Assembly (NCBI RefSeq): GCF_011067135.1
Contig: NZ_JAAMOW010000003.1
Coordinates: 1 to 64,000, forward strand
Direction of reading: 5' to 3'
DNA: 64,000 nt
DNA from: Solimonas terrae
GTDB taxonomy: Bacteria > Pseudomonadota > Gammaproteobacteria > Nevskiales > Nevskiaceae
The notes under the pieces were generated by a model. The model made no database searches. It was not told where the DNA came from and saw nothing but the letters and a program-made list of their open reading frames with translations. The translations under genes were made by a program, and so were the position numbers. Numbering within the stretch: the stretch's first letter is position 1; every line of letters starts with the position of its first letter. Below, piece after piece: positions 8,009 through 42,734 of the stretch.

Positions 8009-8028
8009 TAAATCTAATTATATTATAT
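8009..8028 (-). promoter_or_regulatory. ATTAG box 1 (candidate operator)
   Basis: A 20-bp AT-rich element, read on the minus strand as ATATAATATAATTAGATTTA, in otherwise GC-rich DNA between the divergent ferredoxin (start 7964) and SDR (start 8103). It is one of seven similar boxes in the window that share an invariant ATTAG core and an imperfect dyad. Confidence 0.55.
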
Positions 8029-8102
8029 TTACGGTCGACGGCAATGACCAGAGCGTCGCGACACCCGTGAGGGAGGCAGCGGCCCGGAACGAGGAGAAAA
8101 AA

Positions 8103-8840
8103 ATGACGCGCGATGCGGTGATCCGCTACGACTACCGCGGCCGCAGGGTGCTGGTGACAGGCGGTTCGCAGAGCATCGGGCTTGCGGTTGCGTCGGCATT
8201 CGCGGATGCCGGTGCCGACGTGTGCATCACCGGCACGCGCGCGGCAGCCGCCGACTACGATACCGATCTGACGCGCTTTCAGTACCACCGCCTGCGCCTG
8301 CAGGAAGATGAGGATCGCGCGCAGCTTGCGACGGTGCTGGGAAACACACTCGATGTGCTCGTCAACAACGCCGCGCAGGTTGGCGGCGATGAATATCGGA
8401 CGCCGGATTTCGCGGCCACCATCGGCTCGAATCTGATTGGTGTCGCCGATCTCTGCTATCGCTTGCGCGCGAGCCTGGCGGCGCGCAACGGCTGTATCGT
8501 CAATGTCGGGTCGGTGGCGGCGTTCATTGCGCTGCGCCGCACGCCAGCCTACACGGCAAGCAAGGCCGGACTGCTCGGCTTCACCCGGGCGATCGCCGAC
8601 GAATGGTCGCGTGAGGGCGTTCGCGTGAACATGGTGGCGCCCGGCTTCGTCGACACACCGATGACGGACTGGGCACGGCAAGACGAAGCGGCGTTCAAGA
8701 ACCTGCTGCGGACGATTCCGGCGCGCCGATTCGCGCAGCCCGCCGAAGTTGCAGCGGCCGTGATGTTCCTCGCCGCACCGGAGGCAGGCTACATCACCGG
8801 GCAGAGCCTCGTCGTCGACGGTGGCCTGATGCTGCGTTGA
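8103..8840 (+). CDS. Short-chain dehydrogenase/reductase (SDR)
   Basis: 245 residues. The start is the ATG at 8103, directly behind GAGGAG; the frame is open upstream but unsupported. The cofactor loop is TGGSQSIG (19-26), the NNA motif is VNNAAQ (about 88) and the catalytic set is Ser137, Tyr150 and Lys154 (AYTASKAG). The C-terminal YITGQSLVVDGG is typical of FabG-like enzymes. It interconverts a hydroxyl and a keto group with NAD(P)H. It heads a forward block with three acyl-CoA dehydrogenase genes, so a hydroxyacyl-CoA or ring hydroxyl is a reasonable substrate. Confidence 0.92.
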   Translation: MTRDAVIRYDYRGRRVLVTGGSQSIGLAVASAFADAGADVCITGTRAAAADYDTDLTRFQYHRLRLQEDEDRAQLATVLGNTLDVLVNNAAQVGGDEYRTPDFAATIGSNLIGVADLCYRLRASLAARNGCIVNVGSVAAFIALRRTPAYTASKAGLLGFTRAIADEWSREGVRVNMVAPGFVDTPMTDWARQDEAAFKNLLRTIPARRFAQPAEVAAAVMFLAAPEAGYITGQSLVVDGGLMLR

Positions 8841-8853
8841 ACGGGAGACGCCG

Positions 8854-10035
8854 GTGAGCGACGAAGTCTTTACCCGCGATCTGTGTTCATGGCTGGACGC
8901 CAATCTGCCGGCCAGTCTGTGTACAGCCATGCCCGAGGATGAAATTCCCTGGGGCGGCAGTCGGGGAAGGTTTCCGAATCCGGACACGCGGCGCTGGATG
9001 GACGCGATGGCGGCGCGCGGCTGGACGGCGCCGACCTGGCCGCGCATGTATGGCGGCGGCGGTCTCGACGCGACAAGGGCGGCAATCCTGCAGCAGGAAC
9101 TGAGGCGACGGGGCGCGCGCCCTGCGCTGTTCTCTTTCGGTTTGTGGATGCTCGGTCCGGTGCTGCTGGAATACGGAAGCGAGGCTCAGAAGCAGCGCTT
9201 CCTGCCGCCGATCGTGCGCGGCGAAGCGCGCTGGTGCCAGGGCTATTCCGAACCGGATGCAGGCTCCGATCTGGCATCGCTGCGCACGAAAGCCGTCGAT
9301 GCGGGGGATCACTGGCGTGTCGACGGCCGGAAGATCTGGACGAGCTATGCAGACGAAGCGGACTGGATCTTCTGTCTCGTGCGGACCGACACCGGCCGCA
9401 AGCACGGCGGAATTTCCTTCCTGCTGATCGACATGAAAAGCCCGGGCATATCGACGCGGCCGATCCGCCTGATTTCGGGTTCGTCACCGTTCTGCGAGAC
9501 CTTCTTCGATGACGTTGCCGTGCCCAAGGAACATCTCGTCGGGCCGCTGAACGGTGGTTGGGAGATCGCGCGAAAGTTGCTGCAGTACGAGCGGCAGAAT
9601 GTCGCCGCCGCAGGCTTCGGCGGCGAGCTGAAGAGGATCGAAGCGCGTGCCCGGCAGCTGTTCGGCATCGACGCGCAAGGCCGGATCGCCGATGCGGCGC
9701 TGCGCGAGCGGATCGCCCACGCGGACATGTACGAGTACGCGACGCGGCTGACGATGCAGCGTGCGCAGCGCGAGGTCGATGCCGGGCAGGCCAGCTCGGC
9801 ATCGTCGGTCGTCAAGTACGCCGCAGCACATGCCAACCAGCAGCACTACGAGTTGATGATTGAAACGCTCGGCTACGAAGGCCTCGGCTGGCAAGGCGCT
9901 CCCTATGAAACCGAGAGTCTGGAACAGACCCGCAAGTGGCTGCGCTCGAAAGGCAATTCGATCGAGGGCGGCACATCGGAAATCAATCTGAATGTCATTG
10001 CGCGCCGCGTGCTGGGTTTGCCGGGAGGCGCATGA
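8854..10035 (+). CDS. Acyl-CoA dehydrogenase, FadE-like, putative catalytic (alpha-type) subunit
   Basis: 393 residues with a GTG start at 8854, 13 nt after the SDR stop. FAD-contact motifs include GYSEPDAGSDLASLR and the substrate loop DGRKIWTSYADEADW. The C terminus contains SIEGGTSEINLN, which places a glutamate where the catalytic base is expected. It closely resembles the larger subunit of the heteromeric steroid-side-chain ACADs (ChsE type). The next gene, overlapping by 4 nt, is a shorter ACAD without that glutamate, so the two probably form one alpha2beta2 enzyme. Substrate specificity is not deducible. Confidence 0.9.
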   Translation: MSDEVFTRDLCSWLDANLPASLCTAMPEDEIPWGGSRGRFPNPDTRRWMDAMAARGWTAPTWPRMYGGGGLDATRAAILQQELRRRGARPALFSFGLWMLGPVLLEYGSEAQKQRFLPPIVRGEARWCQGYSEPDAGSDLASLRTKAVDAGDHWRVDGRKIWTSYADEADWIFCLVRTDTGRKHGGISFLLIDMKSPGISTRPIRLISGSSPFCETFFDDVAVPKEHLVGPLNGGWEIARKLLQYERQNVAAAGFGGELKRIEARARQLFGIDAQGRIADAALRERIAHADMYEYATRLTMQRAQREVDAGQASSASSVVKYAAAHANQQHYELMIETLGYEGLGWQGAPYETESLEQTRKWLRSKGNSIEGGTSEINLNVIARRVLGLPGGA

Positions 10036-11129: not shown

Positions 11130-11136
11130 GATCGTC

Positions 11137-13472: not shown

Positions 13473-13481
13473 CGCCGGCCC

Positions 13482-15824
13482 TTACTCGCCTTTCCAGCGC
13501 GGCGCGCGCTTCTGCGCGAACGCCAGTGGCCCTTCGCGGAAGTCCGGCGAGCGAAACATGTCGCGCACCGCGTCGTAGCGCAATTGCCTGCGGTAGGCGT
13601 CGGCCTGCGTCGCTTCGTCAGCACCTTCGCGGACGATGGCTTTCGACGCGCGGATCGACATCGGGCTGCAGGCCAGCATTTCGGAAGCCCAGCGCCGCGC
13701 CTCTTTCATCAGGTTCGCCGCATCGGTGACTTCATTGACGAAGCCGAGTTTGAGTCCTTCTTCGGCGCCAACGCGTCGGCCGGTCAGGATCATGCCCATC
13801 GCCTGCTTCAGCGGAATCTGCTGTGTCAGCCGCAGCAGACCGCCTTCGAGCGCGGCGAGGCCGACTTTCGGCTCGGGCAATGCGAACACCGCGCTGTCAA
13901 CGGCAACGATGATGTCGCAGGCCAGCGCGATCTCGAAGCCGCCGCCCATGGCGGTTCCGTTGACGGCGGCAATCACCGGTTTGTCGAGATTGAAGCGGCC
14001 GGTCAGGCCGGCGAAACCCTTCAACGGCGGCGCAAAGCTCTCGCCGCGTGCCATTGCCGTGGCGGTGAATTTCAGATCGTTGCCCGTACAGAACGCGCGT
14101 TCGCCGGCGCCGGTGATGATCGCGACCCACTGCGACGGATCGGCGGCGAAGTCATCGAAGATTTCCGTGAGTTCCGCATTGGCCGCCGGATGCAGTGCGT
14201 TCATCGCCTCCGGGCGATTCATCGTGACGATGGTCAGGGGGCCTTCGCGCTCCACCGTGCAGTAGCGCCTCGGCAGGGCGCGGCGATCGCGCGGTGTGTC
14301 GCCGATTTCCCAGACCGGCAGGCCGAAGGTGTCGATGCGCACCTGGCCGACGGTGCCGATCGCGTTTCGTTCAGTCGACAGCAGCGGCGCCATCGACGCC
14401 TCGTCATCGGCTATGACCTTGGCCATCACGCGCTGACCCGTGGGTGTGCGTGCGACGACGATGCCGTGCAGCGGGGCGCCGTCGCGCGCGTAGAGAACGG
14501 TGTAGGTCTCGATCGTCGCCGCGCCGACGTAGTCGTCGGCGAGCGCCGGCACCGCATCGCCGGCGCGATCCGCAAGGTCCTGCACCGAATAGTCGAGTGC
14601 GAGCGCGGCCGGCGCCGGCCGCTGGCTCAGCACCAGCGTGTGATGTTTGTTGACGTAGCCGCCCTGGCCGTACAGCAGGCCGATGTCCTGTGGCGTCGCG
14701 CGCAGGATGCGCACCATGGAGCAGACGGCATGCGACATGTAGTTGTTGAGCGGACCACCGAAGAAGGTCAGCCCTCCCGCGACGGTCGGCGTGCAGGTCT
14801 TCGCGTCGAGGCCGAGCGTGCGCAGCGCCATCTTCGGCACCACCGGGAAACAGCTGTACAACTCGACGTGATCGAAGCGTTTGACGTCGCCACCCACCAG
14901 TTCGACGCTTTTGCGAAGCACCGCCTCCTGCGCCGTGCTGTGCGTGTAGGCGTCTCGCTTCAGATAGTCCTCGGATTCCTTCGCGGCTGCGCCGCCCCAG
15001 ACATGGATCATGCGATCGTCCGCGACACCGGCGGCGCGCGCGAACGCGAGGCTGGTGACGATCACGCCGGCCGCCTGGTTGACCGACGGATTGGCGACCA
15101 TGAACTTCGGGTACGGCCAGTTGATCAAACGATTCTGATCGCCGATGGCGGCGATCGTCGCGGCGTCGGGCGCCTTGCGGATCCAGGCCCGCTCGTTGCC
15201 GGCAGCGACCGCTGCGTATTGCGCCCACAGCTGCGCGGACTCGGCATGTGCCTGCGCCGGCGTCTGTTGCCAGGCGGCCTGGGTCGCCATCTCGTACAGC
15301 GGATAGATTTGTGCGGGATCGGTGACGCCCAGCTTTTTTGCGACGGCGCTCATTTCGAAGCGGCTGGAAGGGAAGCTGACAGCGGCTTCCCTGGATGCGG
15401 CCGGTGTCCACGCCAGCTTCGCCTTTTCCTTCATGGCGCGATTGCGCGCGTGCATCGCTTCGCCGCCGACGATCGCCGCCGCCTGTTGTTCGCCGCGTGC
15501 GATCCGCACGGCCGCCTCGTGGATCAGGCGGATCGGGGTTTCGCCGCCCATGCTGGCATTGACTTTGCGCGCCGGCGCGATGCCGAGCCGCTCGCAGAGC
15601 AATGACACCGGATCGGCGTAGCGCCAGCTGATCAGGCCGATCAGTTCGATCGAATCGATGCGCTTCAGCAGTGCCGCGCCGGCATCCTGCTCGGCGGCGC
15701 GCAGCGCGCGTTCCATCAGCGCGACCGGTTCCAGCGCGTCCGCCGGCTGCGTCGGACGATCGACGAATTCGCCGACTCCGACGATGACCGGAATGTGTTC
15801 GGCGTTCATCTCAGTGCTGCTCAC
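13482..15824 (-). CDS. Thiolase-like protein fused to enoyl-CoA hydratase (780 aa)
   Basis: A single uninterrupted frame encodes two enzymes. Residues 1 to about 505 are a thiolase-like (TLP1-type) fold with the extra C-terminal domain (IETYTVLYARDGAPLHGIVV). Its nucleophile region reads VNASMGGETPIRL with no cysteine, as in other type-1 thiolase-like proteins, so it probably binds or cleaves acyl-CoA without a Cys. Residues from about 515 to 780 are a complete crotonase with both catalytic glutamates (FALPEPKVGLAALEGG) and oxyanion-hole motif AFCTGNDL. The start is a GTG at 15824 with GGGAGGA upstream, overlapping the previous stop by 14 nt; an ATG at 15809 is an alternative. The fusion suggests substrate channelling of an enoyl-CoA through hydration and a thiolase-like step. 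Confidence 0.88.
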   Translation of the reverse strand: MSSTEMNAEHIPVIVGVGEFVDRPTQPADALEPVALMERALRAAEQDAGAALLKRIDSIELIGLISWRYADPVSLLCERLGIAPARKVNASMGGETPIRLIHEAAVRIARGEQQAAAIVGGEAMHARNRAMKEKAKLAWTPAASREAAVSFPSSRFEMSAVAKKLGVTDPAQIYPLYEMATQAAWQQTPAQAHAESAQLWAQYAAVAAGNERAWIRKAPDAATIAAIGDQNRLINWPYPKFMVANPSVNQAAGVIVTSLAFARAAGVADDRMIHVWGGAAAKESEDYLKRDAYTHSTAQEAVLRKSVELVGGDVKRFDHVELYSCFPVVPKMALRTLGLDAKTCTPTVAGGLTFFGGPLNNYMSHAVCSMVRILRATPQDIGLLYGQGGYVNKHHTLVLSQRPAPAALALDYSVQDLADRAGDAVPALADDYVGAATIETYTVLYARDGAPLHGIVVARTPTGQRVMAKVIADDEASMAPLLSTERNAIGTVGQVRIDTFGLPVWEIGDTPRDRRALPRRYCTVEREGPLTIVTMNRPEAMNALHPAANAELTEIFDDFAADPSQWVAIITGAGERAFCTGNDLKFTATAMARGESFAPPLKGFAGLTGRFNLDKPVIAAVNGTAMGGGFEIALACDIIVAVDSAVFALPEPKVGLAALEGGLLRLTQQIPLKQAMGMILTGRRVGAEEGLKLGFVNEVTDAANLMKEARRWASEMLACSPMSIRASKAIVREGADEATQADAYRRQLRYDAVRDMFRSPDFREGPLAFAQKRAPRWKGE

Positions 15825-17961
15825 GCGCGTCCTCCCAGACCGTCAGACCGTCGAGTGCCTCGATGCCGCCATCGAACGCCAGCAGCGGATTGATTTCAAG
15901 CGAGACCAGGTCGGGGCCCAGCGCCAGCGCGGCGTCGCCGATCGCGACGATGATCTTCGCCAGTGCCGCGCGATCGACTGCCGGCGCACCGCGGAAGCCG
16001 TCCAGCAAGGCGCTGCCGCGCAATTCGCTCAGCATGGTCAGTGCATCGTCCTCGCACACCGGCAACAGCCGCAGACTGGTGTCTTTCAGCACTTCGACGA
16101 ACACGCCGCCGAGCCCGACGGCGATCGCCGGACCCCACTGCGGATCGCGCATGGTGCCGACGAACAGTTCGACACCGCTGCCGCGCATCGGCGAGACAAT
16201 CACGCCGTCGAGCCGGGCGTCGGGCCGCGCCGCCTGCACGCGCTGCATCATCTGCTCGTACGCCGCGCGCACAGCCTCGGCGTCGCCGAGCCCGAGCGCG
16301 ACGCCGCCGACTTCGGTCTTGTGCCGGATGTCCGGTGACGCGATCTTCAGCACGACCGGCGTCGCGAGCTTCTGCGCACATGCCGCCGCGGCTTCGGCCG
16401 ACGTGACGACCTGCGCGGGGATCACCGGCACGCCCCGGTCGGCGAGAAAATCGAGCACGGCGCGCTCGCTGTCCGGACGCAGCGCCGCTTCCGGCACCAC
16501 GTTGCGTGCCGTGCGGGCGCTGCGCTGCCAGGCGCCATGGCGCAGCAGCTGGCCGAGCGCATTGAGGCCGTGGCGAACGCCGCCGCCGCTGTAGATCACG
16601 CCCAGCTCTTCGGTCAGCGCACGCGCCTCGCCGGTGACGCCGCTGAAGGTGTGGCTGAACATCACGCAGGGCTTGCCGGACTCGCGGAAGCCGGCGCCGA
16701 CCTGGCCGATGAAGCGCCGTGCGAAGCCGCGCGCGTCTTCCTTCGGCGGGGTATCGAAGACGAAGCTCAGTGCGGCGATCTTCGGGTCCTGCGCCAATGT
16801 CCGCAGCGAGCGGGCAATCAGTTCCGGTTCGACCATGGCGGCGCCCGTGACGTCGAGCGGATTGTTCGGCGTCGCGAGCGGCGGCAGCACCTCGCGCAGC
16901 GCCCTGCCGGTGTCCGCCGACAGGGTCGGCAGCTCGATGGCCTCGGCCTCGGCCTGGTCGGTGATGATTTCGCACATGCCGCCGGACATTGCGATGAACG
17001 CGACACCGCCGCCGTGAATCGCGCCAAGCCTGGCGAACAGATCGCTGGTGACGACCAGTTCCTCCAGCGAATGCACACGCGACAGGCCGAGCTTGCGGCA
17101 CAGCGCATCGAACACGCGATCGTTGCCGACCAGCGAACCGGTATGCGCCTGTGCGGCTTTCGCCGAAGCCTCGCTGGACCCGACCTTGAGCACGACCACC
17201 GGTTTGCCGGCAGCATTGGCCGCATCGATCGCGTGTTCGAAGCGGACCGGATCGCGGACCGATTCGAGAAACAGCGCGATCGCCCTCGGTTCCGGCTGAG
17301 CCGCGAGATATTCGATGGCGTCGGCGACCTGCACGTCGGCTTCGTTGCCGGTCGAGATCATGTGCGTCAGACCGACACGCTGCTGATGGGCGAACTGCTC
17401 CAGCTGACTGGCGAGCGCACCACTCTGCGAAACCAGCGCGACCTGCGGCGTGCCGCCGGCCCGCCGCAGCGGTGTCGTCCAGATCGGCGTACCGGCGACG
17501 AAGTTCGCATAGCCGAGGCAGTTCGGGCCGAGCATGCGAATGCCGGCGACGCGTGCCTTGTCGGCGATCTGCTGCTGGCGCTGGCGGCCGCCGTCACCGG
17601 TCTCGGCGAAGCCGCCGGAGAGGATCACCGCACCGCCGATGCCGGCGTTGTGCAGGTCGTCGAAGACTTCGAGCATTTTCGACTCCGGCACCATCAGCAG
17701 GGCTGCGTCGATCGGCTCGCCGACGGCCGAGCAGGTCGGCGCCGCCTCGCTGCCGAAGATCGTGCCGCCCTTGGGGTTGATCATGTGGACCCTGCCGGCG
17801 TAGCCGAAACGCCGCAGGTTGTCGACCGCGGCGATCGACCAGACCGAGCGTTCGGTGGCGCCGACCAGGGCGATCGAGCGGGGATTGAACAGCGGCTCCA
17901 GCGAACCGGCGGACGGCCGGGCAGGCGTCACCGGTGCGGACGGTGCAGGGGATTTCGACAA
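15811..17961 (-). CDS. Acyl-CoA synthetase, ADP/NDP-forming, alpha-beta fusion
   Basis: 716 residues. The N-terminal CoA-binding domain (FNPRSIALVGATERS, about 25-39) is followed by two succinyl-CoA-ligase-like domains with the phosphohistidine in AQAHTGSLVG (His273), then a C-terminal ATP-grasp domain (from about 480; LKIASPDIRHKTEVGGVALG). It makes acyl-CoA from acid, ATP and CoA via acyl phosphate and releases ADP, unlike the AMP-forming ligases elsewhere in the window. The start is taken at TTG 17961, which has GGAGA at proper spacing; no ATG is available in frame nearby. It is divergent from the aldehyde dehydrogenase at 18094, with an ATTAG box between them. Confidence 0.9.
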   Translation of the reverse strand: MSKSPAPSAPVTPARPSAGSLEPLFNPRSIALVGATERSVWSIAAVDNLRRFGYAGRVHMINPKGGTIFGSEAAPTCSAVGEPIDAALLMVPESKMLEVFDDLHNAGIGGAVILSGGFAETGDGGRQRQQQIADKARVAGIRMLGPNCLGYANFVAGTPIWTTPLRRAGGTPQVALVSQSGALASQLEQFAHQQRVGLTHMISTGNEADVQVADAIEYLAAQPEPRAIALFLESVRDPVRFEHAIDAANAAGKPVVVLKVGSSEASAKAAQAHTGSLVGNDRVFDALCRKLGLSRVHSLEELVVTSDLFARLGAIHGGGVAFIAMSGGMCEIITDQAEAEAIELPTLSADTGRALREVLPPLATPNNPLDVTGAAMVEPELIARSLRTLAQDPKIAALSFVFDTPPKEDARGFARRFIGQVGAGFRESGKPCVMFSHTFSGVTGEARALTEELGVIYSGGGVRHGLNALGQLLRHGAWQRSARTARNVVPEAALRPDSERAVLDFLADRGVPVIPAQVVTSAEAAAACAQKLATPVVLKIASPDIRHKTEVGGVALGLGDAEAVRAAYEQMMQRVQAARPDARLDGVIVSPMRGSGVELFVGTMRDPQWGPAIAVGLGGVFVEVLKDTSLRLLPVCEDDALTMLSELRGSALLDGFRGAPAVDRAALAKIIVAIGDAALALGPDLVSLEINPLLAFDGGIEALDGLTVWEDAREQH

Positions 17962-18030
17962 CGCGGTTCTCCAGTGGCGGCGTGCGCAACCGGCAATCCG
18001 AAGGGCCGGGGCTTCACGCGGTCTCGTTTT

Positions 18031-18050
18031 GTCTATTACCATTAGATAAT
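18031..18050 (+). promoter_or_regulatory. ATTAG box 2 (candidate operator)
   Basis: GTCTATTACCATTAGATAAT, in the divergent region between the ADP-forming ligase (start 17961) and the aldehyde dehydrogenase (start 18094). It is also part of a perfect 7-bp inverted repeat, TCTATTA (18032-18038) and TAATAGA (18047-18053) separated by 8 nt. It is one of the two best-conserved members of the seven-box family. Confidence 0.6.
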
Positions 18051-18093: not shown

Positions 18094-19542
18094 ATGCAGA
18101 ACAACCAGACCGGTGCCCCCGTCTACAGCATGACGATCGGCGGCGAGCCGGTGATGACGACGGCGACGATACCGGTGATCAACCCGGCGACCGGCTCGGT
18201 GTTTGCCGCCGCCCCCGATGCCGGTGCCGCCGAGCTCGATCGCGCGGTGTCGGCCGCCCGCGCCGCGTTCGCCGGCTGGCGCGCGACGCCGTTGGCGGAG
18301 CGCCGCGCACGGCTGATCGGCGCGGCCGAGCGGATAGAACAGAACGCCAGGGAACTGGGCGCGCTGTTCACCCGCGAGCAGGGCCGTCCGGCCGGCTTCG
18401 CCCGGCAGGAAATCCACGCCGCTGCGTACTGGTTTCGTGCGATGGCGGCGATCGATGTGCCGGTGGAGATCGCCGAGGACAGCGAGACCCGCCGCATCGA
18501 GGTTCATCACGAACCGCTCGGTGTGGTCTGCGCGATCGTGCCGTGGAATTTCCCGGTGCTGCTGGCCGCCTGGAAGATCGCGCCGGCCCTGGTGGCCGGC
18601 AATACGATGGTGCTGAAGCCGTCGCCGTTCACGCCACTGTGCATGCTGCGTATCGCCGAACTGCTGCGCGACGTGCTGCCGCCCGGCGTGCTCAACGTGA
18701 TCAGCGGTGGCGATGCGCTCGGGCCCATGATGACCGCCCATCCGGGGTTCGCGAAGATCAGCTTCACCGGCTCGACCGCGACCGGCAAGCGGGTGATGGA
18801 ATCGGCGGCCCGCGATCTCAAGCGCGTGACGCTGGAGCTCGGCGGCAATGATGCGGCGATCGTGCTGCCGGATGTCGACGTCGATGCGGTGGCCGAGGCG
18901 CTGTTCTTCGGCGCGTTCTACAACACGGCGCAGGTCTGCATCGCAACCAAGCGCCTGTACATCCATGACGACATCTACGACGCCTTGCGCGACCGCCTGC
19001 ATGCCATCGCCAGGAGCGCCCGGGTCGGCGACGGCGCGCTCAAGGAGACTCAGTTCGGGCCGCTGCAGAATGCGCCGCAGTACCGGCGCGTCAAGCAGTT
19101 GATCGAGGAGACCAGGGCCGCCGGTCACGTATTGCTCGAGGGCGGACCGGTACCGGAGCAGGGCTACTTCCTGCCGTTGACCCTGGTCGACAACCCGCCG
19201 GACGATTCACGGGTGGTCGTCGAGGAAGCGTTCGGCCCGATCCTGCCGCTGCTGCGCTACCGGTCGATCGACGAGGTCGTGGCCCGCGCCAACGCCAGCG
19301 AATACGGACTTGCCGGCGCGGTCTGGTCGGCCGACGTGGACAGGGCGCTTGAAGTTGCCCGACGCCTTGATACCGGCACCGTCTGGATCAACCAGAACCT
19401 GCAATCGACGCCGCAGGCGCCGCTGGGCGGACACAAGCATTCCGGCATCGGCGTCGAAAACGGCCTGGTCGGCCTGCTCGAGTTCACGCAGACCAAGTCG
19501 ATCTACATCCCCAGGCAGGCCGGCTACAAGACCGGTTTCTGA
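18094..19542 (+). CDS. Aldehyde dehydrogenase (NAD(P)-dependent)
   Basis: 482 residues, ATG at 18094 behind GAGGAG. The fold markers are VPWNFPVLLAAWKIAPAL, the cofactor segment FTGSTATGKRVM, the general base in LELGGND and the nucleophile in NTAQVCIATKR. The C terminus has PLGGHKHSGIGVENG. It oxidises an aldehyde intermediate to the acid in the cytoplasm. It heads the long forward run that continues with a Rieske oxygenase and a GMC oxidoreductase, and shares a divergent control region with the ADP-forming acyl-CoA ligase, which could activate the resulting acid. Confidence 0.92.
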   Translation: MQNNQTGAPVYSMTIGGEPVMTTATIPVINPATGSVFAAAPDAGAAELDRAVSAARAAFAGWRATPLAERRARLIGAAERIEQNARELGALFTREQGRPAGFARQEIHAAAYWFRAMAAIDVPVEIAEDSETRRIEVHHEPLGVVCAIVPWNFPVLLAAWKIAPALVAGNTMVLKPSPFTPLCMLRIAELLRDVLPPGVLNVISGGDALGPMMTAHPGFAKISFTGSTATGKRVMESAARDLKRVTLELGGNDAAIVLPDVDVDAVAEALFFGAFYNTAQVCIATKRLYIHDDIYDALRDRLHAIARSARVGDGALKETQFGPLQNAPQYRRVKQLIEETRAAGHVLLEGGPVPEQGYFLPLTLVDNPPDDSRVVVEEAFGPILPLLRYRSIDEVVARANASEYGLAGAVWSADVDRALEVARRLDTGTVWINQNLQSTPQAPLGGHKHSGIGVENGLVGLLEFTQTKSIYIPRQAGYKTGF

Positions 19543-19565: not shown

Positions 19566-19594
19566 TTGACGCGTGACACGTGGCGGCATAATCT
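19566..19594 (+). promoter_or_regulatory. Candidate sigma-70 promoter for the Rieske gene
   Basis: TTGACG at 19566-19571 is separated by 17 nt from TAATCT at 19589-19594, which lies inside ATTAG box 3. The spacing is ideal and the -35 is good; the -10 is a moderate match. Transcription would start close to the ATG at 19624. Confidence 0.4.
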
Positions 19595-19607
19595 AATGAA
19601 GTAAGAT
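19588..19607 (-). promoter_or_regulatory. ATTAG box 3 (candidate operator)
   Basis: Read on the minus strand as ATCTTACTTCATTAGATTAT, ending 17 nt before the Rieske gene start at 19624. Its dyad is the clearest of the set: ATCT at one end and AGAT at the other of a 17-bp segment. It overlaps the candidate -10 element, so occupancy would block transcription. Confidence 0.6.
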
Positions 19608-26565: not shown

Positions 26566-26591
26566 GCATGCCAGACGACCGGAGACCGGCC

Positions 26592-30865: not shown

Positions 30866-31704
30866 ACGGCCGACTGCAGGACAAGGTCGCGATCATCACC
30901 GGCGGCGCCAGCGGCATCGGTCTGGCGAGCGCCGAACGTTTCGTCGCCGAGGGCGCGAAGGTCGTCATCGCCGACATCAACGATGCCGCCGGCCGGCAGG
31001 TCGAGGCGCGCCACGCCGGCGCCTTGCGTTTCCGGTCCTGCGATGTCGCGGTCGATGCCGATGTCGAAGCACTCGTCGCGTTCGCCATTGAAACCTTCGG
31101 CCGGCTCGACATCATGTTCAACAACGCCGGCATCCAGGGCGATCGCGCCGGCTTCACCGAGATCGAGGCGACCTCGTTCGATGCGATGCTGCGCCTGCTG
31201 ACCGGCTCCGTGCTGTCGGGCCACAAGTACGCGGCGCGGCAATTCCGTCGACAGAACAGCGGCGGCGCGATCCTCTCGACCACCAGCGCCGCCGGTCTGC
31301 TCGGTGGGTACAGCAATCTCGGCTACACGGCGGCCAAGCACGCGATCGTCGGCATCGTGCGCGCGGCGACCTTCGAGCTGGCGCCGTACGGCATCCGCAG
31401 CAACGCGATCGCGCCGGGCGTGACGGTGTCGCCGATCATGGCGAGCAGCTTCGGCGTGCCGGCCGAACATGCCGATGCGTTCCAGGATTTCATCGCCGAG
31501 CGCTGCGCGGTGCTGCAACCGGTACCGCGCGCCGGACGACCGCGCGACATCGCCAATGCCGCGCTGTTCCTGTGCAGCGACGAGGCCGAGTGGATCAGCG
31601 GTGTCGTGCTGCCGGTCGACGGCGGCGGCACCGCGATCACGCATTGCGATCCGACCACGGTCGTCGCGCAGGCCGGCATGGAATTCATGAAGACGGCCTC
31701 CTGA
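30862..31704 (+). CDS. Short-chain dehydrogenase/reductase
   Basis: 280 residues from the ATG 30862, overlapping the previous stop. Cofactor loop TGGASGIG (13-20), an acidic Asp38 after beta-2 (VVIADIND) that favours NAD, FNNAG near 86-90, and catalytic Ser142, Tyr155 and Lys159 (GYTAAKHA). The C-terminal WISGVVLPVDGGGTA is standard. It likely oxidises a secondary alcohol formed by the upstream crotonase or oxygenase. It is followed after 1 nt by an APH-type kinase. Confidence 0.92.
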   Translation: MNGRLQDKVAIITGGASGIGLASAERFVAEGAKVVIADINDAAGRQVEARHAGALRFRSCDVAVDADVEALVAFAIETFGRLDIMFNNAGIQGDRAGFTEIEATSFDAMLRLLTGSVLSGHKYAARQFRRQNSGGAILSTTSAAGLLGGYSNLGYTAAKHAIVGIVRAATFELAPYGIRSNAIAPGVTVSPIMASSFGVPAEHADAFQDFIAERCAVLQPVPRAGRPRDIANAALFLCSDEAEWISGVVLPVDGGGTAITHCDPTTVVAQAGMEFMKTAS

Positions 31705-35162: not shown

Positions 35163-35177
35163 GTCAGGGGTCCGGGC

Positions 35178-36695: not shown

Positions 36696-36717
36696 GGCTC
36701 AGGCTCCGTTTCGTGTT

Positions 36718-38364
36718 TCAGTGGCCGGCGTCGGCGCGGATCAGGTCCGCCGCCTTCTCGGCGATCATGAAGGTGGCGGCATTGGTGTTGCCGCTGGTAA
36801 TCGTCGGCATCACCGAAGCATCGATCACGCGCAGGGCGCCGATGCCGCGCACGCGCAGTTGCGGATCGGTGACGGCACCCTCGTCGCTGCCCATGCGACA
36901 GGTTCCGACCGGGTGATAGGCCGGCGCCGCCTTTGCGCGGATGTAGGCCGCCCAGTCGGCGTCGCTGCGCGGCAGCGGATCGGGCCGACGGTCGGCGATC
37001 ACCAGCTTTTCCAGCGAAGGCGTGCGGAACAGCCGCGCGATCAGTTTCTGACCGTCGATCATGGTCTGCAGGTCGCGTTCGTCGGCAAAGAACTGGTGAA
37101 CGATGCGCGGCTTGCCGTCGACATCGAGTTCGACGCGGCCGCGACTCCTGGGCTGGCACAGTGTCGCCAGCACGGTTGCCGTCGGTTCCTTCGGCATCGC
37201 GGCGCTTGCCGTCGATTGCGTGTCCGGCTCGATGTCGTAGGCCAGCGGCAGAAAGTGCAGCTGCACGTCGGGTTCCTGCAGGCCGGCACGGCTGCGTGCG
37301 AGCGCCATCGCCTGCACTGCGGGGGCGCCGAACGCGCCGCGGCGGCCGAACACGAACTGGCCGGCCATGCTCAGCATGCCGAGCGGATGCATCTGCGAAT
37401 TCAGGCTCGGACGATTGATGAATTTGTTCTGGCCGACGCCCGCGTGTTCCTGGAGATTGGCGCCGACACCCGGCAGGTGATGGTGGCTGGCGACACCGAC
37501 TGCCTGCAGGGCGGCGCCGGGGCCGACGCCGGAACGCAGCAGCAGTGCGGCGCTGCCGACCGTCCCGGCGCAGATCAGCAGCTCGCGATTTGCGCGCACC
37601 GTGCGCAGCTCGCCGTTGCGCGCGACCAGCACACCGTTCGCGCGACGTCCGTCGAAACGTATCGAGCGGGCTTCGGTGCGCGTCATCACGGTGAGATTCG
37701 CTCGACTGCGGGCCGGTCTCAGGAACGCCTTTTCGGTGCTGCAGCGCCAGCCGTCGCGCTGTGTCGCGTCAGTGAGAAAGGCACCTTCCATGTTGCCGCC
37801 GTGATAGTCGGCGAGCCGCGGCATGCCGGCCTCGCCACAGGCCGACAGGAAGCTGTCGCACAGCGGGTGCGCTTCGCGCATCGGCGAGACTGTCATCGGG
37901 CCGCCGCGGCCGTGGGCGGGATGCGGGCTTCCCGCCCAGTCCTCGGATTTGAGGAAGTAGGGCAGTACGGCGTCAAAGCCCCAGCCGCTCGCGCCGGCAG
38001 ATTCCCAGCGATCGAAGTCCTGACGCGTGCCGCGAATGTAGACCTGGCCGTTGATCGAGCTGCCGCCGCCGAGCAGTTTGCCGGCCGACCACAGAAAGCG
38101 GCGGTTGTTGATCGAGGGGTCCGGTTCCTGCAGGTAACGCCAGTCGTAGGCGGGATGGCCGACCAGCCGCGCGAAGCCGACCGGCAACTGCACGAGCATC
38201 GATTTCGCTTCGCCGCCTGCTTCGATCAGGATCACGGAGGTCCGCGGATCTTCGCTGAGGCGCGCGGCCAGCAGCGCACCGGCGCTGCCGGCGCCGACGA
38301 TCACGTAGTCGGCCGCCGGGGCGTCGGCAGTGCTGGTCGCAGCCGTCGGGATGCGATCGTCCAT
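36718..38364 (-). CDS. GMC-family FAD oxidoreductase (second)
   Basis: 548 residues, ATG at 38364 with GGAGAGA upstream. FAD motif VIVGAGSAGALLAARL, GMC signature GGGSSINGQVYIRGTR, and active-site histidine in AYHPVGTCRMG with asparagine in TSGNTNAAT. It oxidises an alcohol, reducing FAD. First gene of the reverse operon that continues with a ligase, a Rieske oxygenase and a CaiB-type enzyme. It shares a 293-bp divergent control region, with two ATTAG boxes, with the P450 at 38658. Confidence 0.9.
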   Translation of the reverse strand: MDDRIPTAATSTADAPAADYVIVGAGSAGALLAARLSEDPRTSVILIEAGGEAKSMLVQLPVGFARLVGHPAYDWRYLQEPDPSINNRRFLWSAGKLLGGGSSINGQVYIRGTRQDFDRWESAGASGWGFDAVLPYFLKSEDWAGSPHPAHGRGGPMTVSPMREAHPLCDSFLSACGEAGMPRLADYHGGNMEGAFLTDATQRDGWRCSTEKAFLRPARSRANLTVMTRTEARSIRFDGRRANGVLVARNGELRTVRANRELLICAGTVGSAALLLRSGVGPGAALQAVGVASHHHLPGVGANLQEHAGVGQNKFINRPSLNSQMHPLGMLSMAGQFVFGRRGAFGAPAVQAMALARSRAGLQEPDVQLHFLPLAYDIEPDTQSTASAAMPKEPTATVLATLCQPRSRGRVELDVDGKPRIVHQFFADERDLQTMIDGQKLIARLFRTPSLEKLVIADRRPDPLPRSDADWAAYIRAKAAPAYHPVGTCRMGSDEGAVTDPQLRVRGIGALRVIDASVMPTITSGNTNAATFMIAEKAADLIRADAGH

Positions 38365-38440
38365 GTTCTCTCTCCATGTCGGTCGGTCGCCGACTGTGCA
38401 TGCCGGGGGTGCCGGCTCGGGCGGGCGGAATCATGCGATA

Positions 38441-38460
38441 TAAATCTAATGATGTAAAAT
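38441..38460 (-). promoter_or_regulatory. ATTAG box 4 (candidate operator)
   Basis: Read on the minus strand as ATTTTACATCATTAGATTTA. It lies 77 nt upstream of the GMC start (38364), in the 293-bp divergent region (38365-38657), which is the longest gene-free stretch of the window. Otherwise that region holds only AT-rich sequence and box 5. Confidence 0.58.
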
Positions 38461-38586
38461 AAAAACCGGAACCGATTGCCACCGGCTTACGCATGTCCGG
38501 TATTGTCCATGAGCAATTGCGTTGACGATTTGTGAAATGGACGAAAGCAACGCGAGACAAATTTTGGATTTTGTTCTATTCTTCGA

Positions 38587-38606
38587 TTTACCTAATGTCG
38601 TAAGGC
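38587..38606 (-). promoter_or_regulatory. ATTAG box 5 (candidate operator)
   Basis: Read on the minus strand as GCCTTACGACATTAGGTAAA, ending 52 nt before the P450 start at 38658. It is the second box of the divergent GMC/P450 region, so each of the two transcription units has one. Confidence 0.52.
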
Positions 38607-38657
38607 CGTCGGTCGCCGCCTCGAGACGCGGCCGTCCCAGAACATAGAGAGACCCGG

Positions 38658-39884
38658 ATGGAGACCACCCTGAAGCCGAAGGTTCCGGACCACGTTCCCG
38701 CGGAACTGGTGCACGACTTCGATATCTACAACGACGAGCAGATCAAGCGTGATCTGCATGCGGCATATGCACGCCTGCATCGCGAAGCGCCGCCGGTTTT
38801 CTACACGCCCGCCAATGGCGGTCACTGGCTGATCACGCGCCACGATCTGATGTCCGAAGTCGTGCGCGACTTCGAGACTTTCTCGGCGCGCGAATCGCAG
38901 ATTCCGCGCGTCGAGAACGCGCCGCTGCTGATTCCGCTGAACCTCGATCCGCCGGAGCACACCTGGTATCGGCAGGCGGTGGCGCCGTTCTTCGGGCCGC
39001 GCTCGGTCGCGGCGCGTGAAGCCGAGCTGCGCGATTTCGCGCGCGAGGTGGTCGGCAAGGTTGCGGCGAAGGGAAGTTGCGACTTCGTGCGCGATGTCGC
39101 CGCCCCGTTTCCGGTCACGGTCTTCATGCGCATGATGGGGTTCCCGCCGGAACGCTTCGACGACTTCCGGGCGCTTGCCGACCGCTTCTTCAATGCGCGC
39201 GAGCCGCAGGAGATCGGCGCCGTGTCGCAGGCCATCATCGGCGAGCTGATGGGCTTGATCGAGGTCAAACGTGCGCAGGCCGCAGCCGGCGGCGAGAAGG
39301 TCGATCTGCTGTCGCAGCTGCTCGACGCAAAGATCAACGGCGGACCGATCCAGGCCGACAAGCTCATCGCGCTGTGCTTCCTGCTGTTTCTCGGCGGACT
39401 CGACACTGTCACCAATGCCCTGAGTTTCGCGATCCGCTATCTGGCCGGCGACAAGCCGCTGCAGAAGCGCCTGCGTGAAGATCCGGATGCCTTGATGCCG
39501 TTCGTCGAAGAGGCGATCCGCCTGTACGGCGTCGTCAACACGCCGCGGCTGGTCACGCACGACTGCGAGAAGCTCGGCGTCAAGTTCCGCGCCGGCGACA
39601 TGGTCCTGTGTCTGCTGCCGATGGCGGGCTGGGATGCGATGAAGAACGACAGTCCGGAGAAGTTCGACATCGACCGCAAGGCGCGGTCCTATCTGACCTT
39701 CTCGACCGGCCCGCATCTGTGCCTCGGCCACTTTCTCGCACGCCTGGAACTGCGGATTCTCTACGCGGAGTGGATCAGGCAGATCGGCGAGTTCTCGCTG
39801 GCAGACGGCTACCTGCCGAGCTATCGCGCCGGCATGGTGATGTCGCTGGAGTCGCTGCCACTGACCTGGAAGACGGCAGGCTGA
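38658..39884 (+). CDS. Cytochrome P450 (second)
   Basis: 408 residues, ATG at 38658. I-helix GGLDT (246-250), K-helix ExxR at 285-288, heme loop FSTGPHLCLGHFLARLE with Cys355 as ligand. The heme loop has Ser in place of the more common Gly after Phe, which is tolerated in the P450cam/CYP111 neighbourhood. Soluble, class I, needing a ferredoxin; none is adjacent, so one of the shared [2Fe-2S] ferredoxins at 3032 or 7644 probably serves. It is monocistronic, convergent with the TetR gene and controlled from the box-containing region upstream. Confidence 0.95.
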   Translation: METTLKPKVPDHVPAELVHDFDIYNDEQIKRDLHAAYARLHREAPPVFYTPANGGHWLITRHDLMSEVVRDFETFSARESQIPRVENAPLLIPLNLDPPEHTWYRQAVAPFFGPRSVAAREAELRDFAREVVGKVAAKGSCDFVRDVAAPFPVTVFMRMMGFPPERFDDFRALADRFFNAREPQEIGAVSQAIIGELMGLIEVKRAQAAAGGEKVDLLSQLLDAKINGGPIQADKLIALCFLLFLGGLDTVTNALSFAIRYLAGDKPLQKRLREDPDALMPFVEEAIRLYGVVNTPRLVTHDCEKLGVKFRAGDMVLCLLPMAGWDAMKNDSPEKFDIDRKARSYLTFSTGPHLCLGHFLARLELRILYAEWIRQIGEFSLADGYLPSYRAGMVMSLESLPLTWKTAG

Positions 39885-39913
39885 GCGGTCCGCTGGTCGA
39901 CGGTGCTGCGCCG

Positions 39914-40603
39914 TCAGCGCCCGGTCACGCGCCGGCGGGTGGCGGGCTTCTTTGCCGGCGCCTTTTTCGCAACGGCTTTGCCGGCCTTGCCGACGGCCTT
40001 CGGCACCGTGGAGGTGAAACCGTCCAGATAGTGGCGGACCGTTGCGACGAACAGGGCTTCGCCGTCGAGGTGATTGGCTCGCAGCGCCTCCGACAACTGC
40101 GGCAGGCGGCTGCGATCGAACTGCGGCATCGGTTCGATGCCGCGCGAGCGATAGGCCGCTTCGAACAGGGCCGAGCCGAAGGTCAGTTTCTCCAGGCCTT
40201 CGACCAGCACCATGCGTTGCTCCATCGGGATCGGGTACAGGCCGATCCAGTGATCGTAGGCGCCAAGCAGCAGATGCCTGGGGAAGAACTGCAGCAGCAG
40301 CGGCGCCGCGTTCGGATGCTGCAGGATGGAACGGCGCACGGCGATGTTCAGCGCGAGCATTGCCTCCTTCCAGTCCGGCGAGGGGTCCCTGGGCAGCTTG
40401 GCGTCCATCAGGATCAGGCGCGCGACTTCCGCCATCAACTCCGCCTTGTGCCGGAAGTGGTAGTACAACGAGGGGGCCTTCACTCCCAGACGTTGCGCGA
40501 CCAGTTCCAGGCTCAGCGCGTCCAGACCGTGGATGTCGATTGCGCCCAGAGCCGCACGCGCGGCGCGCTCTCGTGAAATCAGCGGTTTTGCAGGTCTGCC
40601 CAC
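39914..40603 (-). CDS. TetR-family transcriptional regulator with basic C-terminal tail
   Basis: 229 residues. The start is taken at GTG 40603, preceded by AAGGGAAG, so the protein begins with GRPAKPLISRERAARAAL. The helix-turn-helix covers SLELVAQRLGVKAPSLYYHF (about 35-54), followed by a helical ligand-binding domain. The last 28 or so residues are Lys/Ala/Pro/Arg-rich (KAVAKKAPAKKPATRRR), like histone-H1 or AlgP tails, which is unusual for TetR proteins and may add non-specific DNA affinity. It lies among the ATTAG-boxed operons and is the best candidate for the protein that binds those boxes; this is inference from position. Confidence 0.9.
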   Translation of the reverse strand: MGRPAKPLISRERAARAALGAIDIHGLDALSLELVAQRLGVKAPSLYYHFRHKAELMAEVARLILMDAKLPRDPSPDWKEAMLALNIAVRRSILQHPNAAPLLLQFFPRHLLLGAYDHWIGLYPIPMEQRMVLVEGLEKLTFGSALFEAAYRSRGIEPMPQFDRSRLPQLSEALRANHLDGEALFVATVRHYLDGFTSTVPKAVGKAGKAVAKKAPAKKPATRRRVTGR

Positions 40604-40724
40604 GGTCTTCCCTTGATCGGATGAATTTGCGCGATTGCGGCGGCGCCGCCGCGATCTGCCGCAGCTTTGGATTCCCGGCAAGCGCTGTCAAGCGAGGCCG
40701 GCGATCGTGGCACGGCGCCGGCGC

Positions 40725-41369
40725 TCAGGCCGCCGGTACCAGGCTCGCCATCGCCACCTTCTGCGCTGCTCTTGCCGCCAGATAGGCCGGCCGTTGCTGC
40801 AAGCGGCCCCAGTACGCCTGCAGGGCCGGCGACAGGTCGCCCAGCAGCTTGAGCATGCGTGCGAGGACGAAGGCATAGCCGACACTGATGTCGGCCACCG
40901 TGAAGCGGTCGGCCACCAGATATTCGCGATCCTGCAGTGCACGCTCCACGAGTTGCAGGCGATCGAGGAAGATCGTCCGATGGTCGGCAACGACGGCCGG
41001 CTGCCGTCGCGGCTCCGGCTCGAAATGGGCGTAGCGCATCATCGTGGCGAGCGGCGTGGTCAACGAAGCCTCGCCGAAATGCAGCCAGTTCAGCCAGGCG
41101 CCGAAATGCGGATCATCACTCGCCACGGCCAGTCCGCGGCTGCGGTCGCGGCATGCCAGGTATTCGAGGCAGGCCGCCGATTCGAACAGGATCTGCTCGC
41201 CGTCGAGCAGCAGCGGCACGGTCCCGGTCGGATGCAGGCTCAGCAACTCCGGTGCGTGCACGCGCGGCGGGAACGCCATGGCCTTGAGTTCGTACGGCAA
41301 CTGCAGTTCCTCCAGCGCCCACAGGCAACGCAGCGAACGTGCATCCTGGCAGTGATAGAGCGTGATCAT
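40725..41369 (-). CDS. Glutathione S-transferase family protein
   Basis: 214 residues from the ATG 41369; the frame is open far upstream without support. An N-terminal thioredoxin-like domain (LYHCQDARSLRCLWALEE, then HPTGTVPLLLDGEQILFESAA, with the cis-proline and the ES glutathione contact) is followed by the all-helical domain (VADRFTVADISVGYAF, the N-capping box). It conjugates or isomerises with glutathione, perhaps detoxifying epoxides or enones produced by the oxygenases. It is divergent from the alcohol dehydrogenase, with an ATTAG box between. Confidence 0.9.
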   Translation of the reverse strand: MITLYHCQDARSLRCLWALEELQLPYELKAMAFPPRVHAPELLSLHPTGTVPLLLDGEQILFESAACLEYLACRDRSRGLAVASDDPHFGAWLNWLHFGEASLTTPLATMMRYAHFEPEPRRQPAVVADHRTIFLDRLQLVERALQDREYLVADRFTVADISVGYAFVLARMLKLLGDLSPALQAYWGRLQQRPAYLAARAAQKVAMASLVPAA

Positions 41370-41422
41370 GATCTGGCCGTCTCCCCCGGCGCATGCCACT
41401 CGTCGATATGATGCTTGATTGT

Positions 41423-41442
41423 ATCTATCATTATTAGTTATA
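41423..41442 (+). promoter_or_regulatory. ATTAG box 6 (candidate operator)
   Basis: ATCTATCATTATTAGTTATA in the 207-bp divergent region between the GST (start 41369) and the alcohol dehydrogenase (start 41577). It fits the left half of the consensus well; the right half deviates at one core-flanking base. Confidence 0.52.
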
Positions 41443-41576
41443 ACAAAGTCGATCGGCGACCGGACGAGCACGATGCAGCGACTGGATGGCATGAAGGGCA
41501 CGATGGCGCGAGCGTGCAGCGGCCTGGCCCGGCAGGCGCGCCTGTTCGTTGCCATGCGGTGGGCCGGCATGCCGCG

Positions 41577-42674
41577 ATGACGCCGATCACCGCCGCCGTC
41601 GTCCGCGAGCCTCGCGGGCGCTTCACGCTTGAGACCCTGCAGCTCGACGAGCCGCGCGACGATGAAGTGCGGGTCCGCATCGCCGGCACCGGGCTTTGCC
41701 ATACCGACCTGAGCATCCGCGATCAGCAGGTTCCGTTTCCCTTGCCGGCGGTGCTCGGCCACGAAGGTGCCGGCGTGGTCGAAGCGGTCGGCACCGCGGT
41801 CAGGAGCGTGCGGCCCGGCGATCACGTGGTGCTCAGCTTCGCGTCCTGCGGCCGTTGCGCCGCCTGCGACGACGGCAGACCACCGTATTGCGAATCGGGC
41901 CGGACGCTGAACTTCTCCGGCCGACGCGGCGATGGCAGCGGAGTGTTCAGTGGCGCATCGGCTGCGGTGACCGGCCGCTTCTTCGGCCAGTCTTCGTTCG
42001 CCAGCCACGCGCTCGTGCAGCAGAGCGGCGTTGTCAGGATCGCCGACGATGTGCCGCTGCAGCTGATGGGGCCGCTGGCCTGCGGTCTGCAAACCGGTGC
42101 CGGCGCGATATTCAATGTGCTGAAGCCGGTACGCGGCAGTTCGATCGCGATATTCGGTGTCGGCACGGTAGGCCTGGCAGCGGTGATGGCGGCGCGCATA
42201 GCCGGCTGCGCGCGCATCATCGCCGTCGATCAGCACGCCGGACGCCTGGCCCTCGCGCGCGAACTCGGTGCGACCGATGCCATCGACGCGTCGACCGCAA
42301 AGGTCGTGCGCGAAATCCTGGCCTTGAGCGGCGGCGGCGTGCATTGCAGTGTCGAATGCACGGCACAAGCCTCCGTGCTGGAGCAGGCCGTACGCGTGCT
42401 GCGGCCGGCCGGCAGCTGCGTACTGCTCGGCATGGCGGCCCCGGACGCCGAGGTCCGGCTCAACATGCTGAGTCTGCTCAACGGCCGCTGCCTGCGCGGC
42501 GTGATGGAGGGCGACAGCGTGCCGCAGACCTTCATTCCGCGGCTGATCGAACTCTGGCGATGCGGCGAATTCCCGTTCGAGCGCCTGGTCCGTTACTTTC
42601 CGTTGTCCGACATCAACGAGGCGGTTGCGGCCGCCGAGCGCGGCGAGCTGATCAAGGCCATCCTGACGCCCTGA
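41577..42674 (+). CDS. Zinc-dependent alcohol dehydrogenase, MDR family (benzyl/aryl-alcohol-type)
   Basis: 365 residues from the ATG 41577; the frame extends 54 codons upstream but the protein aligns to the family from here. Catalytic-zinc Cys in GTGLCHTDLSIRDQ, GHEGAGVVEAVG, and a structural-zinc cysteine cluster in SCGRCAACDDGRPPYC. The NAD loop is GVGTVGLAAVMAA. It belongs with the XylB/benzyl-alcohol and class III-like dehydrogenases that oxidise primary alcohols to aldehydes. It would feed the aldehyde dehydrogenases in the window. It is separated from the molybdoenzyme operon by 104 nt containing another box. Confidence 0.92.
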   Translation: MTPITAAVVREPRGRFTLETLQLDEPRDDEVRVRIAGTGLCHTDLSIRDQQVPFPLPAVLGHEGAGVVEAVGTAVRSVRPGDHVVLSFASCGRCAACDDGRPPYCESGRTLNFSGRRGDGSGVFSGASAAVTGRFFGQSSFASHALVQQSGVVRIADDVPLQLMGPLACGLQTGAGAIFNVLKPVRGSSIAIFGVGTVGLAAVMAARIAGCARIIAVDQHAGRLALARELGATDAIDASTAKVVREILALSGGGVHCSVECTAQASVLEQAVRVLRPAGSCVLLGMAAPDAEVRLNMLSLLNGRCLRGVMEGDSVPQTFIPRLIELWRCGEFPFERLVRYFPLSDINEAVAAAERGELIKAILTP

Positions 42675-42705
42675 GCGCCGCGCGCATGGCTCCGCGGCGC
42701 GTTGT

Positions 42706-42734
42706 TTTACGTGTCTATTGTCATTAGGTATAGT
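42706..42734 (+). promoter_or_regulatory. Candidate promoter of the molybdoenzyme operon
   Basis: TTTACG at 42706-42711 and TATAGT at 42729-42734 are 17 nt apart, a fair sigma-70 match. ATTAG box 7 fills the spacer and overlaps the -10, consistent with repression. The operon start codon is 45 nt downstream of the -10. Confidence 0.4.
42713..42732 (+). promoter_or_regulatory. ATTAG box 7 (candidate operator)
   Basis: GTCTATTGTCATTAGGTATA, ending 47 nt before the GTG start of the molybdopterin oxidoreductase at 42779. It matches box 2 at 15 of 20 positions. Confidence 0.6.

Follow-up and report, generated by a model that had tools for sequence, protein, structure and literature searches.

Seven palindromic boxes in a catabolic gene region of Solimonas terrae are very likely operators of one TetR-family regulator

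Are the catabolic genes at the start of contig NZ_JAAMOW010000003.1 of Solimonas terrae under common control, and if so, of which protein? The stretch analysed here (the window) covers the first 64 kb of this 491-kb contig and makes up 1.4% of the 4.42-Mb genome. A first-pass annotation had picked out seven copies of a 20-bp box in front of catabolic genes, and had named the TetR-family protein encoded at 39914–40603 as the natural candidate regulator. Comparison of sequences makes it very likely that the seven boxes are operators of a single TetR-family regulator, and that this is the protein encoded at 39914–40603. The same control circuit is very probably also present in other bacterial groups.

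All seven 20-mers were found in the window sequence exactly where they had been placed, at 8009, 18031, 19588, 38441, 38587, 41423 and 42713. The ATTAG core lies on the plus strand at 18031, 41423 and 42713, and on the minus strand at 8009, 19588, 38441 and 38587. The core is present in all seven boxes, as had been claimed; the 20-mer consensus to which they had been aligned fits none of them exactly, with 2, 2, 1, 1, 2, 3 and 1 mismatches in coordinate order. A scan of both strands of the window with this consensus, allowing up to five mismatches, gave 12 matches, of which 11 fell at the seven sites and one, with five mismatches, at 47575. The symmetry of the sites is that of a 15-bp palindrome, YCTAWY-N3-RWTAGR with A/T flanks, and the consensus is better written in this form than as the 20-mer. 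One half, CTAAT/ATTAG, is constant across the seven sites and the other is looser. The palindromes, to which no strand is assigned, are as follows.

8013–8027: site 1, TCTAATTATATTATA, between the ferredoxin gene (7644–7964, minus) and the short-chain dehydrogenase (SDR) gene (8103–8840, plus); overlapped by two promoter-like matches on the minus strand
18032–18046: site 2, TCTATTACCATTAGA, between the acyl-CoA synthetase gene (15811 to about 18018, minus) and the aldehyde dehydrogenase gene (18094–19542, plus)
19592–19606: site 3, TCTAATGAAGTAAGA, before the Rieske oxygenase gene at 19624
38445–38459: site 4, TCTAATGATGTAAAA, on the GMC side of the GMC/P450 intergenic region; footprint in Solimonas soli; overlapped by a promoter-like match on the minus strand
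38591–38605: site 5, CCTAATGTCGTAAGG, on the P450 side of the GMC/P450 region; weakest leave-one-out score, 14.1
41424–41438: site 6, TCTATCATTATTAGT, between the glutathione S-transferase (GST) gene (40725–41369, minus) and the zinc alcohol dehydrogenase gene (about 41577–42674, plus); overlapped by promoter-like matches on both strands
42714–42728: site 7, TCTATTGTCATTAGG, before the molybdopterin oxidoreductase gene at 42779; flanked by both hexamers of a promoter-like match

None of the sites has a base inside a listed gene. All seven are thus intergenic by a composition-based gene list, as the first-pass annotation had stated, and by the same list intergenic DNA makes up 7.8% of 237–44971, an overestimate because two further genes were found in apparent gaps. 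Five sites lie in four divergent gaps (ferredoxin/SDR, acyl-CoA synthetase/aldehyde dehydrogenase, GMC/P450 with two sites, and GST/alcohol dehydrogenase), and the other two precede single genes, those for the Rieske oxygenase at 19624 and the molybdopterin enzyme at 42779. Three scans covering all seven sites yielded seven promoter-like matches, every one of which overlapped a site. Five of the seven sites are overlapped in this way, the exceptions being 18032 and 38591, in agreement with the earlier remark that several boxes overlap candidate −10 elements; the match at 19592 is on the strand pointing away from the gene. The simplest mechanism would be a dimeric repressor covering these promoters until it binds a pathway compound.

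A symmetric weight matrix was built from the seven window sites. The sites scored 17.5 to 24.2 bits with the matrix trained on them and 14.1 to 20.8 bits when each was left out. In 60 simulated windows of 64 kb (second-order Markov) the best score averaged 9.7 and never exceeded 16.5, and no site of at least 17 bits was present, compared with seven out of seven in the real window with the matrix made from them. Five sites remained above the simulated maximum of 16.5 in the leave-one-out test; the site at 41424 (16.4) was just below it and that at 38591 (14.1) clearly below, and both are backed by counterparts in S. soli. On these scores, the reading of the boxes as random AT-rich words was rejected.

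In the whole genome YCTWAYNNNRTWAGR had 11 matches with at most one mismatch, six of them in the window (binomial P 4e-9, which is optimistic because the pattern was drawn from these very sites). A second pattern, YCTAWYNNNRWTAGR, had 32 matches, six in the window, and the remainder mostly scored low by the matrix. Across the genome the matrix was applied to the matches of these two degenerate patterns only. Two matches outside the window reached 17 bits, and both lie in stretches resembling the control regions of other regulators; the regulon therefore seems local to this gene region. The first, at C20:245398 (18.6 bits), precedes a PadR-like regulator gene (identified by eye), beside another palindrome. 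The second, at G000:C11:132392 (L004:1501; 17.5 bits), is a chance match to the motif, enclosed in a longer intergenic TGTCAG...CTGACA palindrome that is probably the operator of another regulator. Neither was accepted as a regulon member, nor were C11:670596, one of two tandem copies preceding another TetR gene, and C17:22426, which we take to be 16S rRNA. Further matches at C18:36529 (15.5 bits) and C19:2277 (15.1 bits) were not counted. Random scatter, including sites inside genes, had been named as an outcome that would speak against a regulon. The window sites are all intergenic and the two best outside matches fall in operator-like regions of other regulators, within a genome that the matrix covered only at the matches of the two patterns.

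Each of the seven sites has a counterpart in the matching place in S. soli, where the genes are on three contigs and the P450/tetR unit is more than 50 kb from the end of its contig; the idea of a local catabolic regulon is strengthened accordingly, even with the molybdopterin gene of that species a remnant. The counterpart of site 1 (L099:15295, 26.8 bits) precedes the ferredoxin orthologue. Site 2 is represented by the same 15-mer, as its reverse complement, between the synthetase and aldehyde dehydrogenase orthologues (L099:8079, 23.2 bits). Before the orthologue of the Rieske gene at 19624, the counterpart of site 3 was found both in S. soli (L099:6514, 21.0 bits) and in Hydrocarboniphaga (L047:19748). 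That of site 6 precedes the GST/alcohol dehydrogenase operon (L101:9304, 24.1 bits), and that of site 7 (L101:6892, 14.0 bits) an N-terminal remnant of the molybdopterin orthologue. The GMC/P450 pair has counterparts of 16.0 and 13.8 bits; at site 5 the left half with its flank, TTTACCTAAT, is unchanged and the right half differs. Across the GMC/P450 gap as a whole the two species are 70% identical; no identical run is longer than 10 bp, and of the three that reach this length two fall within sites. Hydrocarboniphaga (G008) has five sites, before orthologues of the OB-fold/GST genes, the Rieske gene at 19624, the thiolase-enoyl-CoA hydratase (ECH) fusion, the P450 and the ferredoxin.

The third 10-bp identical run, GAGACAAATT, at about 38552–38563, lies between the two operators in both Solimonas species (S. 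soli counterpart in L043). It may be a promoter element or a site for another protein.

The proposed regulator is encoded at:

39914–40603, minus strand: TetR-family regulator, proposed repressor, 229 amino acids (PF00440; full-length TetR similarity; AlphaFold model)

Close relatives of this protein were found in three of 85 genomes of the order, namely its own, S. soli and Hydrocarboniphaga. Among 58 family genomes, an orthologue of the Rieske oxygenase at 19624 is present in exactly the three genomes with the TetR; these also hold the P450, of which one more genome (G004) has a 40% relative. A plasmid search (133 records) gave none above 60% identity, and a class-wide search gave one hit in 369, the genome itself. 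Hydrocarboniphaga carries two neighbouring divergent copies of the TetR gene (G008:C82:81993-83622; L014, L050), which share 65% and 60% identity with that of the window.

For comparison over longer distances we used 33 further loci (L053–L085) from Proteobacteria and Actinobacteria that contain TetR orthologues of 38 to 59% identity. The orthologues were fetched partly by the peptide KAPSLY[YH]H, and conservation of that stretch therefore partly reflects how they were chosen. Inverted repeats in the 33 loci were enumerated without reference to the window motif. The motif core, ATCTA-N7-TAGAT, ranked first of 5357 observed combinations of half-site and spacing, with 20 occurrences in 14 loci compared with 0.15 expected. 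At the 3-bp spacing there were 19 exact matches in 12 of the 33 loci, and at spacings of 0, 1, 2 and 4 to 8 bp between none and three. This strict centre is in keeping with the earlier description of a dyad suited to a dimeric repressor. Among 360 column permutations, the motif was first by loci with exact matches (12/33) and second by loci with at most one mismatch (28 vs 29). The window-site matrix detected 50 sites in 23 of the 33 loci, and 12 sites in 8 loci of the reversed-sequence control. Homologues of window genes have 41 of these 50 sites in the 350 bp upstream of them, eight of the 41 being upstream of tetR, and one site is inside such a homologue; upstream distances were counted from homologue alignment starts at E values up to 1e-15, often in large enzyme families. 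Within 300 bp upstream of tetR, matches with at most one mismatch occurred in six of the 33 loci (permuted mean 0.7, maximum 5). Flanks outside the matrix are also biased in the orthologue loci, in the form TTA..TAA, with A at position −8 in 83%. A separate set of 13 loci, in which the TetR has just the helix-turn-helix (HTH) in common, gave five sites in five loci, and two in the control. Taken together, the top-ranking palindrome round the orthologues, its presence upstream of tetR in eight loci and the co-distribution with the Rieske gene in 58 genomes support the choice of the TetR at 39914–40603 as the probable regulator.

In two of these HTH-only loci, both from Anaerolineae (L086:2841 and L094:9524), ACTAATATCATTAGT and GCTAATATCATTAGT lie about 500 bp or less from tetR. 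Half-sites at a spacing of exactly 8 bp were seen in six of the 13 loci (L086–L098), perhaps representing another motif of those TetR proteins.

The regulator has a TetR_N helix-turn-helix (PF00440, 39.6 bits against a cut-off of 24), and its structure, predicted with 30 sequences, is all-helical, the ligand/dimer domain included, with ten helices and a mean predicted local distance difference test score of 89.1. The best PDB matches of the model by E-value are TetR class D entries. The likeness to the tetracycline repressor extends over the full length (NF010319, E 4e-15; TetR class D aligned over residues 9–200), although the NF010319 score of 56.2 bits is far below the curated cut-off of 265. 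The neighbours also differ: the window tetR lies next to catabolic genes, the P450 at 38658 and the GST at 40725, with no tetracycline efflux gene beside it. The window motif resembles the tetracycline operator, tetO, in being a 15-bp palindrome with T at +4. The outer YCTA...TAGR is likewise a feature of tetO.

In orthologue-locus sites, +2 is A or G, mostly A, +3 is mostly T, and +4 is T in 93%. In TetR, no side chains other than those of Arg28 and Gln38 hydrogen-bond to bases, the partners being G(+2) and A(+3) in the 15-bp operator, and Tyr42 is in contact with T(+4) (PMC7102968). The residues of the window TetR aligned to these three are Glu33, Ala43 and Tyr47 (with an inferred numbering offset of one). 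In an alignment of 35 orthologues (L051–L085), read by eye, the first place held no Arg and in some cases Gln, and the second no Gln. Compared with tetO, the window motif is changed at +2 and +3, the positions read by the replaced Arg28 and Gln38; the changed bases fit the changed residues Glu33 and Ala43, so far as alignment can tell.

The proposed mechanism is that a TetR dimer would bind each 15-bp palindrome (half-site YCTAWY, 3-bp centre, A/T flanks), and from its position over the −35 and −10 elements, or between them, would exclude RNA polymerase. A pathway substrate or early intermediate would occupy the C-terminal pocket and move the two DNA-binding heads apart. The whole set would then be derepressed: the P450, ferredoxin, GMC and zinc alcohol dehydrogenases, aldehyde dehydrogenase, CoA ligases, Rieske oxygenase, GST and molybdopterin enzyme.

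A number of observations weigh against this assignment. Ten of the 33 orthologue loci have no site of at least 13 bits, and five (L068, L069, L078, L079 and L084) have no match even at one mismatch. Upstream of tetR, the count at up to two mismatches (12/33) is unexceptional (permuted maximum 16). In S. soli the orthologue of the molybdopterin gene at 42779 is a remnant of the first 93 of 730 residues, which has kept its operator-like site. In Hydrocarboniphaga no good site was found before the orthologue of that gene or before the best match to the aldehyde dehydrogenase at 18094, and the orthologue of the GMC gene at 36718 is preceded only by a weak site (11.0). The contact argument is partial, with residue 33 varying widely among orthologues. 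Finally, neither Solimonas species has a good site immediately in front of tetR, for which the one usable site in the window would be that preceding the GST gene on the same strand.

The last point bears on the alternative that survives best, in which the TetR does regulate the genes but as an activator, or repression has been lost at some sites, so that the set is not one on/off unit. Besides the lack of a good site before tetR in Solimonas, the absence of an overlapping promoter-like match at 18032 and 38591 speaks for it. We regard it as unlikely, given that the overlap at the other five sites is as expected of repressor operators. Most studied members of the TetR family are repressors (PMC3511530), which also weighs against an activator.

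It is rather less likely still that the boxes are bound by another regulator, either a second TetR (53592–54221), a PadR-like protein (57604–58158) or a TetR encoded elsewhere in the genome. The second TetR, with a BetI-type C-domain, and the PadR-like protein are both encoded in the window, and an operator-like tandem with a related half-site, YCTTAC, accompanies a sibling TetR at C11:670218. The motif nevertheless emerges round orthologues of the first TetR across phyla. The second TetR occurs in eight of the 58 family genomes, five of which are without the P450/Rieske/TetR set (G004 has the 40% P450), and in one of 46 relative loci searched. In the same 46 loci the first TetR was found 37 times, and a PadR homologue not once. 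Neither of the two window proteins tracks the motif, and both were rejected as the regulator. The tandem near the sibling gene consists of two CTTAC-N3-GTAAG palindromes (G000:C11:670596, L001:1501, and about 30 bp upstream) before a TetR-family gene whose product shares 38% identity with the window TetR across some 100 residues, and is probably that protein's own operator.

That the boxes are instead core-promoter sequence, AT-rich −10 regions common to several promoters, is very improbable: all seven promoter-like matches overlap sites and AT-rich promoters are conspicuous in a genome of 67% GC, but a palindrome with a fixed 3-bp centre is no promoter feature, ATTAG has no uniform orientation with respect to the genes, and nine other genus genomes without this TetR have only 15 matches to YCTAAYNNNRTTAGR at up to one mismatch, apart from one recurrent word, presumably 16S rRNA. 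Plain promoter elements were rejected on this spacing specificity and scarcity. The G038 match, the stronger-looking of two examined, is in a short AT-rich gap between open reading frames (ORFs) that by eye resemble dnaA and dnaN.

The genes next to the seven sites are the following.

38658–39884, plus: cytochrome P450; nearest solved named relatives CYP101D1 and P450cam
36718–38364, minus: GMC alcohol oxidoreductase
19624–20802, plus: Rieske oxygenase alpha subunit
18094–19542, plus: aldehyde dehydrogenase
15811–18018, minus: NDP-forming acyl-CoA synthetase; CoA-binding, CoA-ligase and ATP-grasp domains; start codon inferred
7644–7964, minus: 2Fe-2S ferredoxin
8103–8840, plus: SDR
40725–41369, minus: GST; same strand as tetR, 121 bp before tetR
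41577–42674, plus: zinc alcohol dehydrogenase; start inferred
42779–44971, plus: molybdopterin oxidoreductase

The acyl-CoA synthetase gene at 15811 is followed by a thiolase-like/ECH fusion at 13482 and then an acyl-CoA dehydrogenase at 12249, and the surrounding genes encode Rieske oxygenases, GMC and molybdopterin enzymes, CoA ligases and acyl-CoA dehydrogenases. Stretches that the gene list had left empty, 25362–27755 (C-terminal half) and 30490–31704, contain a third Rieske oxygenase and an SDR. The thiolase at 22900 comes closest to entry 6ok1, a lipid-transfer-protein aldolase, and has an OB-fold partner. The substrate of the regulon is probably cyclic. Because a CYP101-like P450 occurs together with an Ltp2-like thiolase and its OB-fold partner, our guess is a cyclic terpenoid- or steroid-like compound.

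A broader reading is offered tentatively, at a little under even confidence. It holds that the window TetR belongs to a previously undescribed cross-phylum repressor-operator lineage, sister to the tetracycline repressor, which would have retained a tetO-like layout of 15 bp (outer YCTA/TAGR, 3-bp centre) while the +2/+3 code and residues 28/38 changed together. In Gammaproteobacteria, Alphaproteobacteria and Actinobacteria, the lineage would accompany a modular pathway of the CYP101-P450/Rieske/Ltp2 type that acts on a single class of cyclic substrates, terpenoid- or steroid-like in nature.

KstR and PsrA operators, with which the boxes had been contrasted, are repressor operators of lipid or steroid catabolism. 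Three other systems were compared. AmtR of Corynebacterium glutamicum, a TetR-family regulator of nitrogen control, has the box tttCTATN6AtAGat/aA (PMC2723105), like the window motif an AT-rich palindrome with outer CTA...TAG. Its CTA and TAG are 8 bp apart, unlike the 7 bp of the window motif, in which AmtR-type spacing does not occur, and the window TetR matches it only weakly, in the HTH (5e57, E 2e-4). EdcR of Caenibius tardaugens is, like the proposed regulator, of the TetR family, and represses a steroid (estradiol) catabolic cluster from an operator overlapping −10 boxes; the published operator, TnnCnnTACnAnTnGTAnnGnnA, is a different palindrome from the seven window sites (PMC8700777). 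QsdR of Rhodococcus erythropolis is a 186-residue TetR-family repressor of a catabolic operon, released by a pathway-related ligand (PMC6262395); likened to the proposed repressor by description only, it acts on a different operon.

A TetR-family repressor with a palindromic operator is thus a known kind of system; the footprint seen here by sequence comparison is unusually wide and consistent. A literature search, with most subscription papers beyond reach, found no published description of the motif, cluster or regulon. A catabolic gene set found repeatedly across several bacterial groups now has a proposed regulator, operator and regulon. The operator offers a handle for finding further pathway genes and separating them from the many neighbouring acyl-CoA enzymes, and inducers of the repressor would offer a route to the substrate. 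The likeness to TetR/tetO, with the change at the bases read by two changed residues, provides a testable case of repressor-operator co-divergence.

Two further matches were seen in S. soli. One, of 16.7 bits, is at 4474 in the region L101:4474-6842, near the molybdopterin remnant. The other (L100:6131-6161), possibly due to chance, lies between ORFs that by eye resemble a CRISPR cas operon.

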